Assembly (NCBI RefSeq): GCF_003368325.1
Contig: NZ_CP031466.1
Location: forward strand, 1,612,001 to 1,676,000
Direction of reading: 5' to 3'
Source: Paraburkholderia caffeinilytica
Lineage (GTDB): Bacteria; Pseudomonadota; Gammaproteobacteria; Burkholderiales; Burkholderiaceae
DNA length: 64,000 bases
Part shown: one piece after another, positions 16,025 to 58,815 of the stretch
How positions within the stretch are numbered: position 1 is the first letter of the stretch
Layout of the letters: every line of letters starts with the position of its first letter
Notes under the pieces: generated by a model
What the model was told of the DNA's origin: nothing
Database searches by the model: none
Seen by the model: only the letters and a program-made list of their open reading frames with translations
Position numbers and translations under genes: made by a program

Positions 16025-19016
16025 GTTGACGTGCTCCTTCGCTGTCGTAGAACACCGAGCTGGTGACCTTTGCAGCAATCTGCTTGCCGCTCGCGAGCGG
16101 AATCGTGACCGTTTCGCCGATCTTGTCGAGACCGCCCTTCACCACCGCCATCGCAATCGAGCGCTTCAGGATCGGGCTGTAATAGCTCGACGTGACGTGG
16201 CCGAGCATCGGTGCGGTATCGCCCTGGAACGGACCGGCGACGATTTGCGAGCCTTCGGGGATCACGAACGACGGATCGTCCGCGAGCAGCCCGACCAGTT
16301 GCTTGCGCCCCGCCTTCGCGGTGTCCGACCGCGTCAACGAACGCTTGCCGAGAAAGTCTTTCGACTTCGCGACCAGCCCGCCCATGCCGAGATCGTACGG
16401 CGTCATCGAACCGTCTGTATCCTGACCGACGATGATGTAGCCCTTCTCGGCACGCAGCACGTGCATGGTTTCCGTGCCATACGGCGTGATGTCGAATTCC
16501 GCGCCCGCGGCCATCAGCGCTTCCCATACCGCACGGCCGACGTTCGCCGGGACGTTCACTTCATACGCGAGTTCGCCGGAGAAGCTGATCCGCATCACGC
16601 GCGATGCCGCCCCCGCCACAGTGCCTTCGCGATAGCTCATGAACGGGAAGGCTGCATTTGCGAAGTCGATGTCGTGGCAGACTTTCTGCAGAACCTTGCG
16701 GCTGTTCGGCCCGACCACGGCAAACGTCGCCCAATGATCCGTGACGGACGCGAGGCGCACGCGCATGTCCGGCCACTCGGTCTGCAGCCAGCGTTCGAGC
16801 CACGTGAGCACGCGTGCCGCGCCGCCTGTGGTGGTGGTCATCATGTAGTGCTGGTCGGCGAGACGCACGGTCACGCCGTCGTCGAAGATCATGCCGTTTT
16901 CGTCGAGCATCAGGCCGTAGCGGCACTTGCCGACTTCCAGTTTGCTCCACGGATTCGTGTAGACCCAGTTCAGCAGCTTCGCCGCATCGGGACCCTGAAT
17001 GTCGATCTTGCCGAGCGTCGAGGCATCGAGAATACCGACGCTCGTGCGTACCGCCAGCGATTCACGCGCCACTGCCGCATGCATGTCCTCGCCGGGCTTC
17101 GCGAAGTACCACGGACGCTTCCAGTTGCCGACGTCCTCGAACGCAGCGCCGTTTTCCACGTGCCATTCGTGCACCGCGGTCTTGCGCACCGGATCGAGAA
17201 ACTCGCCGAGTTCGCGGCCCGCAAACGTGCCGAACGTAACCGGCGTGTAGTTCGGACGGAAGGTCGTGGTACCGGTCTCGGGAATCGTCTTACCGAGCGC
17301 TTGCGCCAGAATCGCCATGCCGTTGATGTTGCCGAGCTTGCCCTGATCGGTGCCGAAGCCCATCGCGGTATAGCGCTTCACGTGCTCGACCGATTCGAAA
17401 CCTTCGCGCGCCGCGAGGAAAATATCGGCCGCCGACACGTCGTTCTGGAAGTCGACGAACTGCTTCGGCCCGCGCGTCGCGAGTTCGCGTCCGCCGACGA
17501 GCCACAGCGGTTGCATCTTCGCTTCGGTAATCTCGGCCACCTGCACCGGATTCGGCCGCGCAACGATATGGCCCGCTGCACGCGCCGCCTCGACGCCGGC
17601 GTCGATCGCAAAGCGAATCCCCTGGCCCAGCGTGAAATCGCCGGCGCACGCGCCAACGCTCGTCTCCGCCTGCATCGCCTTGCCCGGCACGAAGCAGGCC
17701 TTGTCGTCATGCCAATGCGCCTTGCCGCCCGACTGCGCGAACAGGTGCAGCACCGGACTCCAGCCGCCGGACATCGCGAGCAGATCGCAAGGCAGCGCGC
17801 CCTGCTTCGCACCGACCTGTCCGTTCGAATACGACGCTACATCGACCGAGGCGACCCGCAGCTTGCCCTGTGCCGCGGTCACGACCACGCCGTTCATCAC
17901 CTTGACGCCGTAGCGCCGTGCCAGCGCGGGCAGCGTGCCCTTCGATTCGCCGGCGCGCGGATCGACGACCGTCACCTGGGCGCCGGCCGCTTTCAGATCG
18001 AGCGCGCATTGATAACCGTCGTCGTTGTTCGTGAACACCACGGCATTGCGGCCCGGCAGCACCGCATAGCGATGCAGATAGGTCGACACAGCCGAAGCCA
18101 GCATCACGCCGGGCAGATCGTTGTTGCCGAACACGATCGGCCGCTCATGCGCGCCGGTGGCGAGAATCACGCGTTTCGCGCGGATCTTCCACATCAGTTC
18201 GCGCGTGCCCTTTCGCTGCGACACCGGCAGATGCTCGGTGAGCCGCTGCGTGACGGTGACGAGGTTATGGTCCTGGTAACCGAATGCGGTGCTGCGGCAC
18301 AGGATCTTCACGTCCGGCATCTGCCGCAGTTCGTCCTCGATCTTGTGAACCCATTGCAGCGCCGGCTTGCCGTCGATCTCCGCGCGGCACGACAGCAGCG
18401 AGCCGCCGAGTTCCGGCTGATCGTCGATCAGCGTCACGCGTGCGCCGGACAATGCCGCCGCATGTGCCGCCGCCAGACCCGTCGGGCCGCCGCCGACCAC
18501 CAGCACGTCGCAATGCGCAAAGCACTTGTCGTAGCGGTCCGCATCGGTTTGCTCGGGCGCCTTGCCGAGACCGGCCGCGTCGCGGATCACTTCTTCATAC
18601 TTCGGCCAGAACTTGCGCGGCCACATGAAGGTCTTGTAGTAGAAGCCCGCCGGAATGAAGCGCGCGAACTTCTGATTGATCGCCATGCGGTCTTTTTCGA
18701 TGCTCGGCTTCGCGTTGACGCTGGTCGCGACGAGCCCCTGATACAACTCCACTTCGGTCGCGCGTGCGTTGGGCACCGTGTATGCGCCGGTTTCGAGCTG
18801 CACGACCGCATTCGGCTCTTCCACACCCGCCGTCACGATGCCGCGCGGCCGATGGTACTTCCAGCTGCGCGCCACGAAGTGCTCACCGTTCGCGAGCAGC
18901 GCGGACGCCAGCGTGTCGCCCTGATAGCCCTGATACTTGCGCCCGTTGAACGTGAAGTTCAGTACGATCGCGCGGTTGATGCGCCCGCCGCTGGGGAGTC
19001 GGTCTTTCTGGCTCAT
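16014..19016 (-). CDS. soxA: Sarcosine oxidase alpha subunit
   Basis: Large subunit (1000 residues) of heterotetrameric sarcosine oxidase, which turns sarcosine into glycine, transferring the methyl as 5,10-methylenetetrahydrofolate or releasing formaldehyde. Layout: residues about 15-100 a ferredoxin-like Fer2_4 domain that lacks the Fe-S cysteines, as is normal for this subunit; about 165-480 a nucleotide-binding domain with DVLVVGGGPTGLAAAHAA that holds NAD; about 590-980 an aminomethyltransferase (GcvT-like) domain with the folate site and C-terminal barrel. ATGHERPIVF-type motif appears as ATGAHERPIVFGNNDLPGV. The start ATG overlaps the soxD stop by 4 bases (ATGA). Confidence 0.95.
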   Translation of the reverse strand: MSQKDRLPSGGRINRAIVLNFTFNGRKYQGYQGDTLASALLANGEHFVARSWKYHRPRGIVTAGVEEPNAVVQLETGAYTVPNARATEVELYQGLVATSVNAKPSIEKDRMAINQKFARFIPAGFYYKTFMWPRKFWPKYEEVIRDAAGLGKAPEQTDADRYDKCFAHCDVLVVGGGPTGLAAAHAAALSGARVTLIDDQPELGGSLLSCRAEIDGKPALQWVHKIEDELRQMPDVKILCRSTAFGYQDHNLVTVTQRLTEHLPVSQRKGTRELMWKIRAKRVILATGAHERPIVFGNNDLPGVMLASAVSTYLHRYAVLPGRNAVVFTNNDDGYQCALDLKAAGAQVTVVDPRAGESKGTLPALARRYGVKVMNGVVVTAAQGKLRVASVDVASYSNGQVGAKQGALPCDLLAMSGGWSPVLHLFAQSGGKAHWHDDKACFVPGKAMQAETSVGACAGDFTLGQGIRFAIDAGVEAARAAGHIVARPNPVQVAEITEAKMQPLWLVGGRELATRGPKQFVDFQNDVSAADIFLAAREGFESVEHVKRYTAMGFGTDQGKLGNINGMAILAQALGKTIPETGTTTFRPNYTPVTFGTFAGRELGEFLDPVRKTAVHEWHVENGAAFEDVGNWKRPWYFAKPGEDMHAAVARESLAVRTSVGILDASTLGKIDIQGPDAAKLLNWVYTNPWSKLEVGKCRYGLMLDENGMIFDDGVTVRLADQHYMMTTTTGGAARVLTWLERWLQTEWPDMRVRLASVTDHWATFAVVGPNSRKVLQKVCHDIDFANAAFPFMSYREGTVAGAASRVMRISFSGELAYEVNVPANVGRAVWEALMAAGAEFDITPYGTETMHVLRAEKGYIIVGQDTDGSMTPYDLGMGGLVAKSKDFLGKRSLTRSDTAKAGRKQLVGLLADDPSFVIPEGSQIVAGPFQGDTAPMLGHVTSSYYSPILKRSIAMAVVKGGLDKIGETVTIPLASGKQIAAKVTSSVFYDSEGARQHVE

Positions 19017-58097: not shown

Positions 58098-58419
58098 GCG
58101 TGCTCCCAGGCTTGCTAACGGAAATCGGCGATTCGCGCGCGAGTGGCGCGGGGTTGCCGGCGGGATTGCCGGCGGGTTGCCTATTGTGCCCAGAATTCCC
58201 GTGCGTCGAGCGAATGCAGCGCGGCGGGCTTCACTGTTGGCAGCGGCCCGACATCCTGGCGTCGGCAAGTCGGTCTATTTCTACCACTTCGCGCCCATCA
58301 GACCGGCGGATGTGGACGGCATGCCGCTTTGCGGCGGATGGCATGGTGCGTGCAGTTGGAACGAATGAGCGCGGCGATGTCCGGGCTCGCTGTCAATCGA
58401 ACCTTGCCGGAGATCCATC
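58098..58419. other. Divergent gap before the double-glycine peptide gene
   Basis: A 322-base region with no other supported gene. It includes short G-rich near-repeats (GGGTTGCCGGCGG, GGATTGCCGGCGG at about 58149-58180) and the GGAG at 58409-58412 in front of the peptide start. Confidence 0.5.
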
Positions 58420-58668
58420 ATGAACGCGCTAGTCCTTAAAGATCTGCCCCGCGTCGACGAACTCGACCGTTTGGCTTCGCAATCCGTACTCGGCGGCACC
58501 GCCTGCCTCACCCGAGAAGCACCGCCTGCTTGCCCCGGCGGGATGATGCCGCCCATTGTCCTTCGGCGCGGCTGGGAGTGTCCGCCGGTTCATTGGGGTT
58601 GCGGGCCGGTTCATTTCCCGTACGGCAAGCCGCCTTGTCATTCTGAACCGGTGGTGGTGCCGCTTTAG
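58420..58668 (+). CDS. Double-glycine leader peptide with cysteine-containing core (candidate RiPP or bacteriocin-like precursor)
   Basis: An 82-residue protein with GGAG seven bases before the ATG and a strong terminator 19 bases after the stop, so it is very likely expressed. Residues 1-26 look like a double-glycine export leader: D-L-P-R-V-D-E-L-D-R-L-A-S-Q-S-V-L-G-G, with the E-L pair and hydrophobic positions at the expected distance from G25-G26. Similar leaders of the form E-L-D-x-x-A-x-x-x-V-x-G-G occur on small Burkholderiales proteins of unknown function. The core (27-82) is Pro/Gly-rich with cysteines at 29, 38, 54, 61 and 73, two P-V-H units and three aromatic residues next to them. 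No modifying enzyme or peptidase-transporter gene is visible in the flanks. Confidence 0.7.
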   Translation: MNALVLKDLPRVDELDRLASQSVLGGTACLTREAPPACPGGMMPPIVLRRGWECPPVHWGCGPVHFPYGKPPCHSEPVVVPL

Positions 58669-58686: not shown

Positions 58687-58726
58687 TGAAAATAGACGGG
58701 CCAGTATGACGGCCCGTCTATTTTCA
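58687..58726. terminator. Intrinsic terminator after the peptide gene
   Basis: TGAAAATAGACGGGCC (58687-58702) pairs perfectly with GGCCCGTCTATTTTCA (58711-58726) around an 8-base loop: a 16-bp stem with A- and T-rich ends, effective in both directions. Confidence 0.9.
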
Positions 58727-58778: not shown

Positions 58779-58815
58779 GAAAAAACCCCACAAGACTTTC
58801 ATCTTGCGGGGTTTC
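58779..58815 (-). terminator. Intrinsic terminator of the cyo operon
   Basis: Leftward: stem from AAACCCC-A-CAAGA (58783-58795) and TCTTG-C-GGGGTTT (58802-58814), with T6 (complement of 58780-58785) after it. It lies 25 bases past the cyoD stop. Confidence 0.88.

Follow-up and report, generated by a model that had tools for sequence, protein, structure and literature searches.

A double-glycine leader peptide gene of Paraburkholderia caffeinilytica as probable dispersed cargo of a distant C39 exporter

The analysed stretch of DNA (the window) comprises 64,000 nucleotides of Paraburkholderia caffeinilytica, C1:1612001-1676000, in a genome of 8.3 Mb in three contigs. The subject of this report is a gene at 58420-58668 (+ strand) that encodes an 82-residue precursor with a leader ending in double glycine (GG). 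An earlier note on this DNA had described the product as a secreted, possibly modified, microcin- or RiPP-like peptide (RiPP: ribosomally synthesised and post-translationally modified peptide); the sigma-54-type promoter, the upstream repeat, and the link to the peptides of an exporter, all described below, were absent from it.

Class II microcins are small proteins with a GG leader and a C39 exporter, and an immunity gene adjoins the precursor gene. The present gene resembles them in leader, exporter, and product size, but no immunity gene was recognised adjacent to it in the window and its promoter is of the sigma-54 type. In cyanobacteria, long-type C39 transporters with a nucleotide-binding domain are found beside HlyD and SurA (PMC3140520), and the double-glycine 'bacteriocin' clusters of groups I and II likewise have GG-leader precursors (Wang et al. 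2011, PMC3140520). In contrast to these clusters, the system here has two cNMP domains and an FHA protein, its transporter gene is followed by that of a sigma-54 activator, its promoters are of the sigma-54 type and have an upstream repeat in common, its substrates are scattered over the genome, and no NCBIfam precursor model was matched above cut-off. HetC of Nostoc is a C39 ABC exporter that binds ppGpp in vitro; it resembles the present one in its N-terminal cNMP domain and in that no nearby substrate gene was found (PMC10986499), whereas for the present exporter leader and promoter allow a substrate family to be proposed. GG leaders are recognised via hydrophobic residues at -4, -7, -12, and -15, and in one case partly via a far N-terminal motif (PMC7018657). 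The motif of that case, pneumococcal RtgAB (-22 to -18), resembles a conserved KDL stretch at -20 to -18 here, but phylum, regulator (Rgg for RtgAB), and leader differ. No description of the peptide family or of the regulon was found in the open literature. The orphan-substrate account given below is the simplest one, and the literature supports its single elements.

Exporter locus and shared regulatory signals

The peptide gene is very probably a sigma-54-regulated, dispersed ('orphan') cargo exported by the system around C1:375029-378085. The gene, the leader family, the promoter, the repeat, the transporter genes, and their co-occurrence were observed directly. Judged from sequence, export and regulation by this system are well supported, and promoter plus upstream repeat appear to be the strongest link between peptide gene and exporter: the window gene would have its export tag and its on-switch in common with the exporter's other cargo.

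A search of the genome with PF03412 yielded three C39 open reading frames (ORFs), one of which is a full transporter with two cNMP domains and C39, membrane, and ATPase domains, 1.29 Mb from the peptide gene. The exporter that the earlier note had placed elsewhere in the genome thus has a candidate. The locus contains the following genes, assigned by domain scan (the transporter also by the PF03412 search):

C1:369012-369923, + strand, outer-membrane efflux protein
C1:370155-372806, + strand, FHA protein
C1:372784-374157, + strand, HlyD
C1:374195-374947, + strand, SurA-like rotamase
C1:375029-378085, + strand, C39-peptidase ABC transporter
C1:378082-379440, + strand, sigma-54 activator, its start overlapping the transporter stop

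Four leader peptides are encoded near the exporter (C1:360372-368181), almost without cysteine. A profile of 14 leaders, those of the window gene and the cluster peptides included, recovered them together with a new one at C1:414803 (E 5.4e-5; next match E 0.13). An independent hidden Markov model (HMM), built solely on the window gene's counterparts in other genomes, ranked the four cluster peptides second to fifth among 2064 ORFs (E 0.0045 to 0.082; search space window and fetched exporter regions, Z = 200000). Two of the cluster peptides, with near-identical MNTL leaders, are encoded at C1:361156-361437 (L011:11157-11438, -) and C1:367897-368181 (L011:17898-18182, +) and flank kinase and caspase genes. 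Their promoter stretches are identical; farther upstream the two diverge, yet the inverted repeat is found in both.

The signals upstream of the window gene are:

58248-58273, + strand, inverted repeat CCGAC-N16-GTCGG (score 10/10), putative sigma-54 activator binding site
58339-58354, + strand, sigma-54-type promoter TGGCATGGTGCGTGCA (pattern, conservation), GG at 58340-58341 and GC at 58352-58353, transcript start expected near 58365

Sigma-54 promoters are defined by GG and GC elements 12 bp apart, and TGGCATGGTGCGTGCA has both at this spacing in consensus context. The pattern TGGCAYRN5TGCA was found once in the window (0.25 expected; 20 of 100 shuffles have one), and with one mismatch six times against 5.83 expected. 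The exact match is not significant alone, so the promoter call depends on how it is conserved and where it lies. TGGCA-N7-TGCA lies within 400 nucleotides (nt) upstream in 49 of 56 peptide loci (the window and 55 others). On both strands of the 56 fetched regions there are 48 such sites in total, equal to the number of fetched peptide loci that have one. A looser form was found within 160 nt upstream in 54/56. Genome-wide the pattern gave 22 matches (23 in the reversed control), four of them 62-90 nt before leader genes. A fourth match to the leader DNA pattern, at C2:3988364, was rejected as chance, being inside a long RimO-like ORF.

The inverted repeat, CCRAC-N15/16-GTYGG, is located about 90-130 nt 5' of the promoter. 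Among the 54 promoter-bearing peptide loci it scored 10 in 31, 9 in 22, and 8 in one, against 30 and 130 of 3000 random 160-mers with scores of 10 and 9, respectively. At the 22 promoter sites of the genome the repeat was perfect in three, namely at the window gene and at both MNTL peptide copies beside the exporter; the remaining 19 scored 6-8. As the motif was defined on these same sequences, loci from other genera provide the fairer test. Two other genera supplied 16 leader loci (L125-L140), 15 of them from one genus and hence not independent. A sigma-54-like site was found 69-89 nt before the ATG in 16/16 (15 strict; expectation for a loose form, 0.11 per 500 nt), and the repeat scored 9 or 10 in 13/16, compared with 220 of 3000 random 180-mers.

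Transporter and peptide also occur together. The transporter was matched at E = 0 in 110/144 genus genomes (76-100% identity; in G129 as two pieces), that is, in 57/57 with the peptide and 53/87 of the others (Fisher p = 1.9e-9, kinship ignored), so the check for C39 exporters in the same genomes proposed in the earlier note came out positive. Among 398 family genomes, 124 had a leader match, 155 the transporter, and 121 both (p = 6.6e-66, kinship ignored). Eight genera, this one among them, provided 11 exporter regions (L163-L172 and L174; L173 continues the genome of L172), all of which keep the order FHA, HlyD, SurA, transporter, activator. In these regions, where peptide genes were picked by a leader pattern of our own making, the best repeat of promoter-bearing first genes of peptide units, with scores of 8-10, is in most cases 146-158 nt 5' of the promoter. 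Genes second or later in a row mostly have no promoter of their own, as expected for operons; it was also absent, by the pattern used, for genes of L171 (19835, near the locus edge), L163 (6932), L170 (17879), and L174 (14252). Asparagine-rich cores (like NVAFASDIHSTVKPQQTASNTINF) were seen in exporter-cluster peptides of several genera (L163-L174, L011), and an amyloid-like nature comes to mind. Among 11 other cluster genomes, the fetched stretches of eight gave a caspase-like match and those of six a kinase match.

Several observations weigh against assigning the window gene to this exporter. The genome has two further C39-domain ORFs, both short (open frames of 229 and 331 codons), and the sequence fetched around 56 peptide genes, about 4-6 kb on each side, contained no transporter. 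The repeat motif was drawn up by eye after the peptide loci had been viewed, and the association p-values carry no correction for shared ancestry. Three of the 124 leader genomes (G304, G334, G402; 350-440 contigs) had no transporter match, and 3/34 transporter-negative genus genomes are less than 90% complete. The leader gene at C1:414803 (L107) ranked only sixth in the independent HMM (E 3.9) and has a promoter with a repeat score of only 7. Genes for peptides of this type, beginning MASI or similarly, have a promoter and a repeat score of 8 in L167, L171, and L172, and no promoter by the pattern used in L163 and L174; not all cargo is therefore under the same control. Finally, leader position -7 is Met in the exporter-cluster peptides versus Ala or Ser in 53/54 leaders of the window family, so recognition could differ.

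The precursor gene and its conservation

The transcribed unit in the window contains:

58367-58388, + strand, 5'-untranslated region (UTR) hairpin GAGC...GCTC, covarying in relatives (47-UTR alignment)
58409-58412, + strand, ribosome-binding site GGAG, 7 nt 5' of the ATG, invariant in 47 aligned 5'-UTRs
58420-58668, + strand, gene of the 82-residue precursor (translation, homologues, conservation, substitution rates)
58420-58497, + strand, export leader, residues 1-26, GG-terminated (orthologue alignment, leader HMM)
58498-58665, + strand, mature core, 56 residues with 13 Pro, 5 Cys, the CPPVHWGCGPVHFP motif, and a VVPL end (alignment)
58687-58726, + strand, 16-bp perfect inverted repeat with 8-nt loop, probable terminator (sequence)

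The product consists of MNALVLKDLPRVDELDRLASQSVLGG followed by the core, and the leader stretch VDELDRLASQSVLGG terminates at residue 26. GGAG, GG leader, and one-gene organisation were all noticed earlier and hold: an operon with cyo was rejected since cyo is on the opposite strand, and one with the HAD gene since the end of the latter lies 749 bp upstream, beyond a minus-strand gene. The gene neighbours are a HAD hydrolase, a CMD/AhpD-like protein, and the cyo operon. The stem described as a terminator is a perfect repeat starting 18 nt 3' of the stop, but no T run follows its 3' arm, which ends TATTTTCA; a shorter version is present in several close relatives and most loci have none. Between the precursor gene and cyoD, at 58783-58814, there is another hairpin (CCCC...GGGG, flanked by runs of A and T); judged by eye, it is likely the cyo operon terminator.

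The 5'-UTR hairpin, aligned in 47 of 53 5'-UTRs, has moderate support as a conserved structure between promoter and ribosome-binding site. In the alignment 86.2% of cells are paired and both sides are changed in four of eight pairs (1/500 shuffles as high), with only six cells changed on both sides and the inner pairs often broken. The covariation score was reached by 24/500 shuffles and exceeded by two slid versions.

A protein search returned 10 relatives, 67-87% identical, including Paraburkholderia sp. BL23I1N1 and P. elongata. Peptide matches at E ≤ 1e-3 were found in 57/144 genus genomes, the own one included; 13 of them are paralogues at other sites. The earlier note had named lack of conserved homologues, or of protein-level selection, as grounds to drop the peptide, and neither was the case. 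The other 56 loci were extracted with about 6 kb of flank, shorter at contig ends. The neighbourhood is window-like in 43/56 fetched loci: 42 have the HAD gene, and L070 has the genes for di-haem peroxidase and phosphoesterase. The same chromosomal site is occupied in 44/144 genomes, window included. Four site-conserved copies look decayed: L068 has no ATG start, L073 a shifted leader, L084 no promoter, and in L098 only the second half of the gene matches. The counts for 41 orthologues exclude L068 and L073, retain L084, and lack L098, where the match covered just the second half of the core and no sequence was extracted; the paralogue loci (L088-L101) are outside these counts and inside the sets of 54 and 56 loci. 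Among the family matches listed, full-length ones with a Cys core are confined to Paraburkholderia. One full-length match from another genus, in G441 (L126), is Cys-free and ends HIVPL like many orthologues.

Pooled ratios of nonsynonymous to synonymous substitution rates (dN/dS) were 0.235, 0.386, and 0.382 in three clades (13, 9, and 13 sequences; 35/41 orthologues used), with 0.225, 0.304, and 0.289 for the leader and 0.238, 0.385, and 0.422 for the core. By these values, the 82-residue ORF is a real gene under purifying selection.

GG is kept in 41/41 aligned orthologues, and D8, L9, P56, P63, P67, and P81 are likewise invariant; L15 (-12) is found in 40, V/I/M at -4 in 41, and H58 in 38. 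Over the set of 54 leaders, GG occurs in all, L/I at -12, V/I/M at -4, and A or S at -7 in 53 each, and -15 is mostly V, C, or I. At -3 the window copy has Leu versus Arg in 48/54. The E-L pair noted previously is present, with its position corrected to -13/-12 relative to the cut. The five cysteines on which the earlier description centred (residues 29, 38, 54, 61, 73) are all in the window copy, but their number is not conserved: C38 and C61 are kept in 39/41 orthologues, C54 in 34, C29 in 29, and C73 in 22. Cores contain one to six cysteines, so five is no family feature. A fixed five-cysteine disulfide framework was rejected, with mixed parity (odd in 23/41, even in 18/41) and no joint loss of pairs (29 and 73, p = 0.037; nine other pairs, p ≥ 0.165; uncorrected, 41 orthologues). 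Judged from the alignment, the conserved features are the leader, prolines, glycines, and the PPxHxGCGPVxxP motif rather than the five cysteines. A looser PxHxGCGPxxxP pattern is present in 41/43 orthologues (in L075 and L081 elsewhere in the core) and, there without the cysteine, in 7/13 paralogues. The paralogues have the leader in common, and their cores are Pro-rich and nearly Cys-free; 9/13 end DPRLQ. In a direct comparison, one pair showed 40% identity across 75 columns, with much of that identity in the leader. With cysteines varying and the Pro/Gly motif retained, the cysteines look optional on that motif. By reading, some cores are distinguished by short repeats, e.g. GCHGGYEPP and PPHYNP.

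No family was matched when Pfam and NCBIfam models, including named RiPP precursor models (NHLP, Nif11, others), were run against the window protein, and a PDB profile search gave no match at E ≤ 1. The AlphaFold model (42 sequences; low confidence) has one helix, residues 12-22, in the leader and no structure in the core; its mean predicted local distance difference test score of 51.7 makes it too weak for a fold search.

Proposed pathway and alternative readings

Which protein binds what, the cleavage, the export, and the function are inferred as follows. Binding of a sigma-54 activator to the repeat at 58248-58273 would fire the promoter at 58339-58354; the activator gene that immediately follows the transporter gene is its most likely source. 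The 26-residue leader of the precursor would be recognised by the C39 peptidase domain of the transporter, the precursor cut after Gly25-Gly26, and the cut peptide released through the HlyD adaptor and a TolC-like channel. The mature 56-residue Pro/Gly/Cys/His-rich peptide, probably unmodified and unstructured, would act extracellularly. Our best guess for its role, from inference only, is in extracellular matrix, surface, or metal binding; this is favoured over killing on account of the lack of a recognised immunity gene or confident core structure, the short core repeats, and stable inheritance.

The peptide might instead be an extracellular signal steering group behaviour, like GG pheromones, which seems rather unlikely: no receptor candidate was recognised adjacent, the core varies between species by short repeats, and 56 residues is long for a pheromone. 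A regulated promoter would suit this reading. GG pheromones use such exporters (PMC7018657) and HetC, a related cNMP-bearing exporter, is proposed to export a signal (PMC10986499).

We regard a class II microcin-like bacteriocin, with the cut core killing competing bacteria, as improbable. The double-glycine leader, the C39 transporter in the genome, and the small Cys-containing core suit it, and the core evolves faster than the leader in two of three clades; the core is nevertheless under purifying selection, Pro-rich, and modelled with low confidence. No immunity gene was recognised adjacent, where the HAD hydrolase, CMD/AhpD-like protein, and cyo lie, in the window or in relatives as fetched (a small unrecognised one is possible). 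Occupation of the same site in 44/144 genomes suits a stable role and argues against a microcin.

The chances are similarly poor for a RiPP precursor with core cysteines modified by enzymes elsewhere, for example by a protein near the exporter:

L011:14209-16323, - strand, caspase (Peptidase_C14) and FGE-sulfatase domain protein (domain scan; FGE-sulfatase E 1.7e-55)

A leader plus Cys-rich core is a common RiPP layout, and the FGE-sulfatase family includes cysteine-oxidising members, the cysteine-to-formylglycine enzymes. Two matches below cut-off point the same way, the SurA-like protein to TIGR04500 'peptide maturation' (95.8 against 180 bits) and one cluster peptide to TIGR04497, a RiPP target model (17.2 against 32 bits); TIGR04149, also touched among the cluster peptides, gave 12.9 against 25 bits. 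The mixed cysteine parity speaks against modification, as do nearly Cys-free relatives with the same leader and, in 7/13, a similar core motif, and cluster peptides almost without cysteine. A scan of nine proteins encoded in the exporter region of this genome, and a reading of that region's ORF lists by eye, revealed no other recognisable modification enzyme. The earlier 'possibly modified, microcin- or RiPP-like' thus stands weakly: the FGE-sulfatase domain leaves it some room, but neither a RiPP enzyme nor an immunity gene was recognised adjacent (ORF list by eye, four neighbours scanned) and cysteine number varies. A Ser/Thr kinase gene is adjacent to the caspase/FGE-sulfatase gene, and two adjoining DUF4399-like proteins were seen in the exporter region (L011:16570-17118, scanned; 17166-17609, by eye).

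A cytosolic small protein with a merely leader-like N-terminus, e.g. a copper or haem helper of the cyo oxidase, would suit the Cys/His in the core and the position beside cyo in the own and many genomes, but is highly improbable, since the GG leader is kept in 41/41 and common to peptides beside the C39 exporter, the promoter architecture is that of the exporter-side peptides, and the most constant neighbour is the HAD gene (42/56 loci), cyo not being seen within the fetched stretch in many.

For the orphan-cargo reading, the broader picture is held with middling confidence: an undescribed secretion regulon of Burkholderiaceae, in which a nucleotide-sensing C39 exporter with its own sigma-54 activator would serve scattered GG-leader proteins with unrelated cores (Cys/Pro-, Pro-, and Asn-rich), to be found across the genome by their leader and promoter signature. 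The window peptide would be an orphan member widely kept in this genus and part of an extracellular material. Orphan GG peptides of Gram-negative bacteria are hard to assign to exporters, and here leader, promoter, and repeat together link scattered genes to a single machine, which provides a secretome that can be tested in a family of bacteria associated with soil and plants. A single operon apparently controls both the expression and the export of small proteins.
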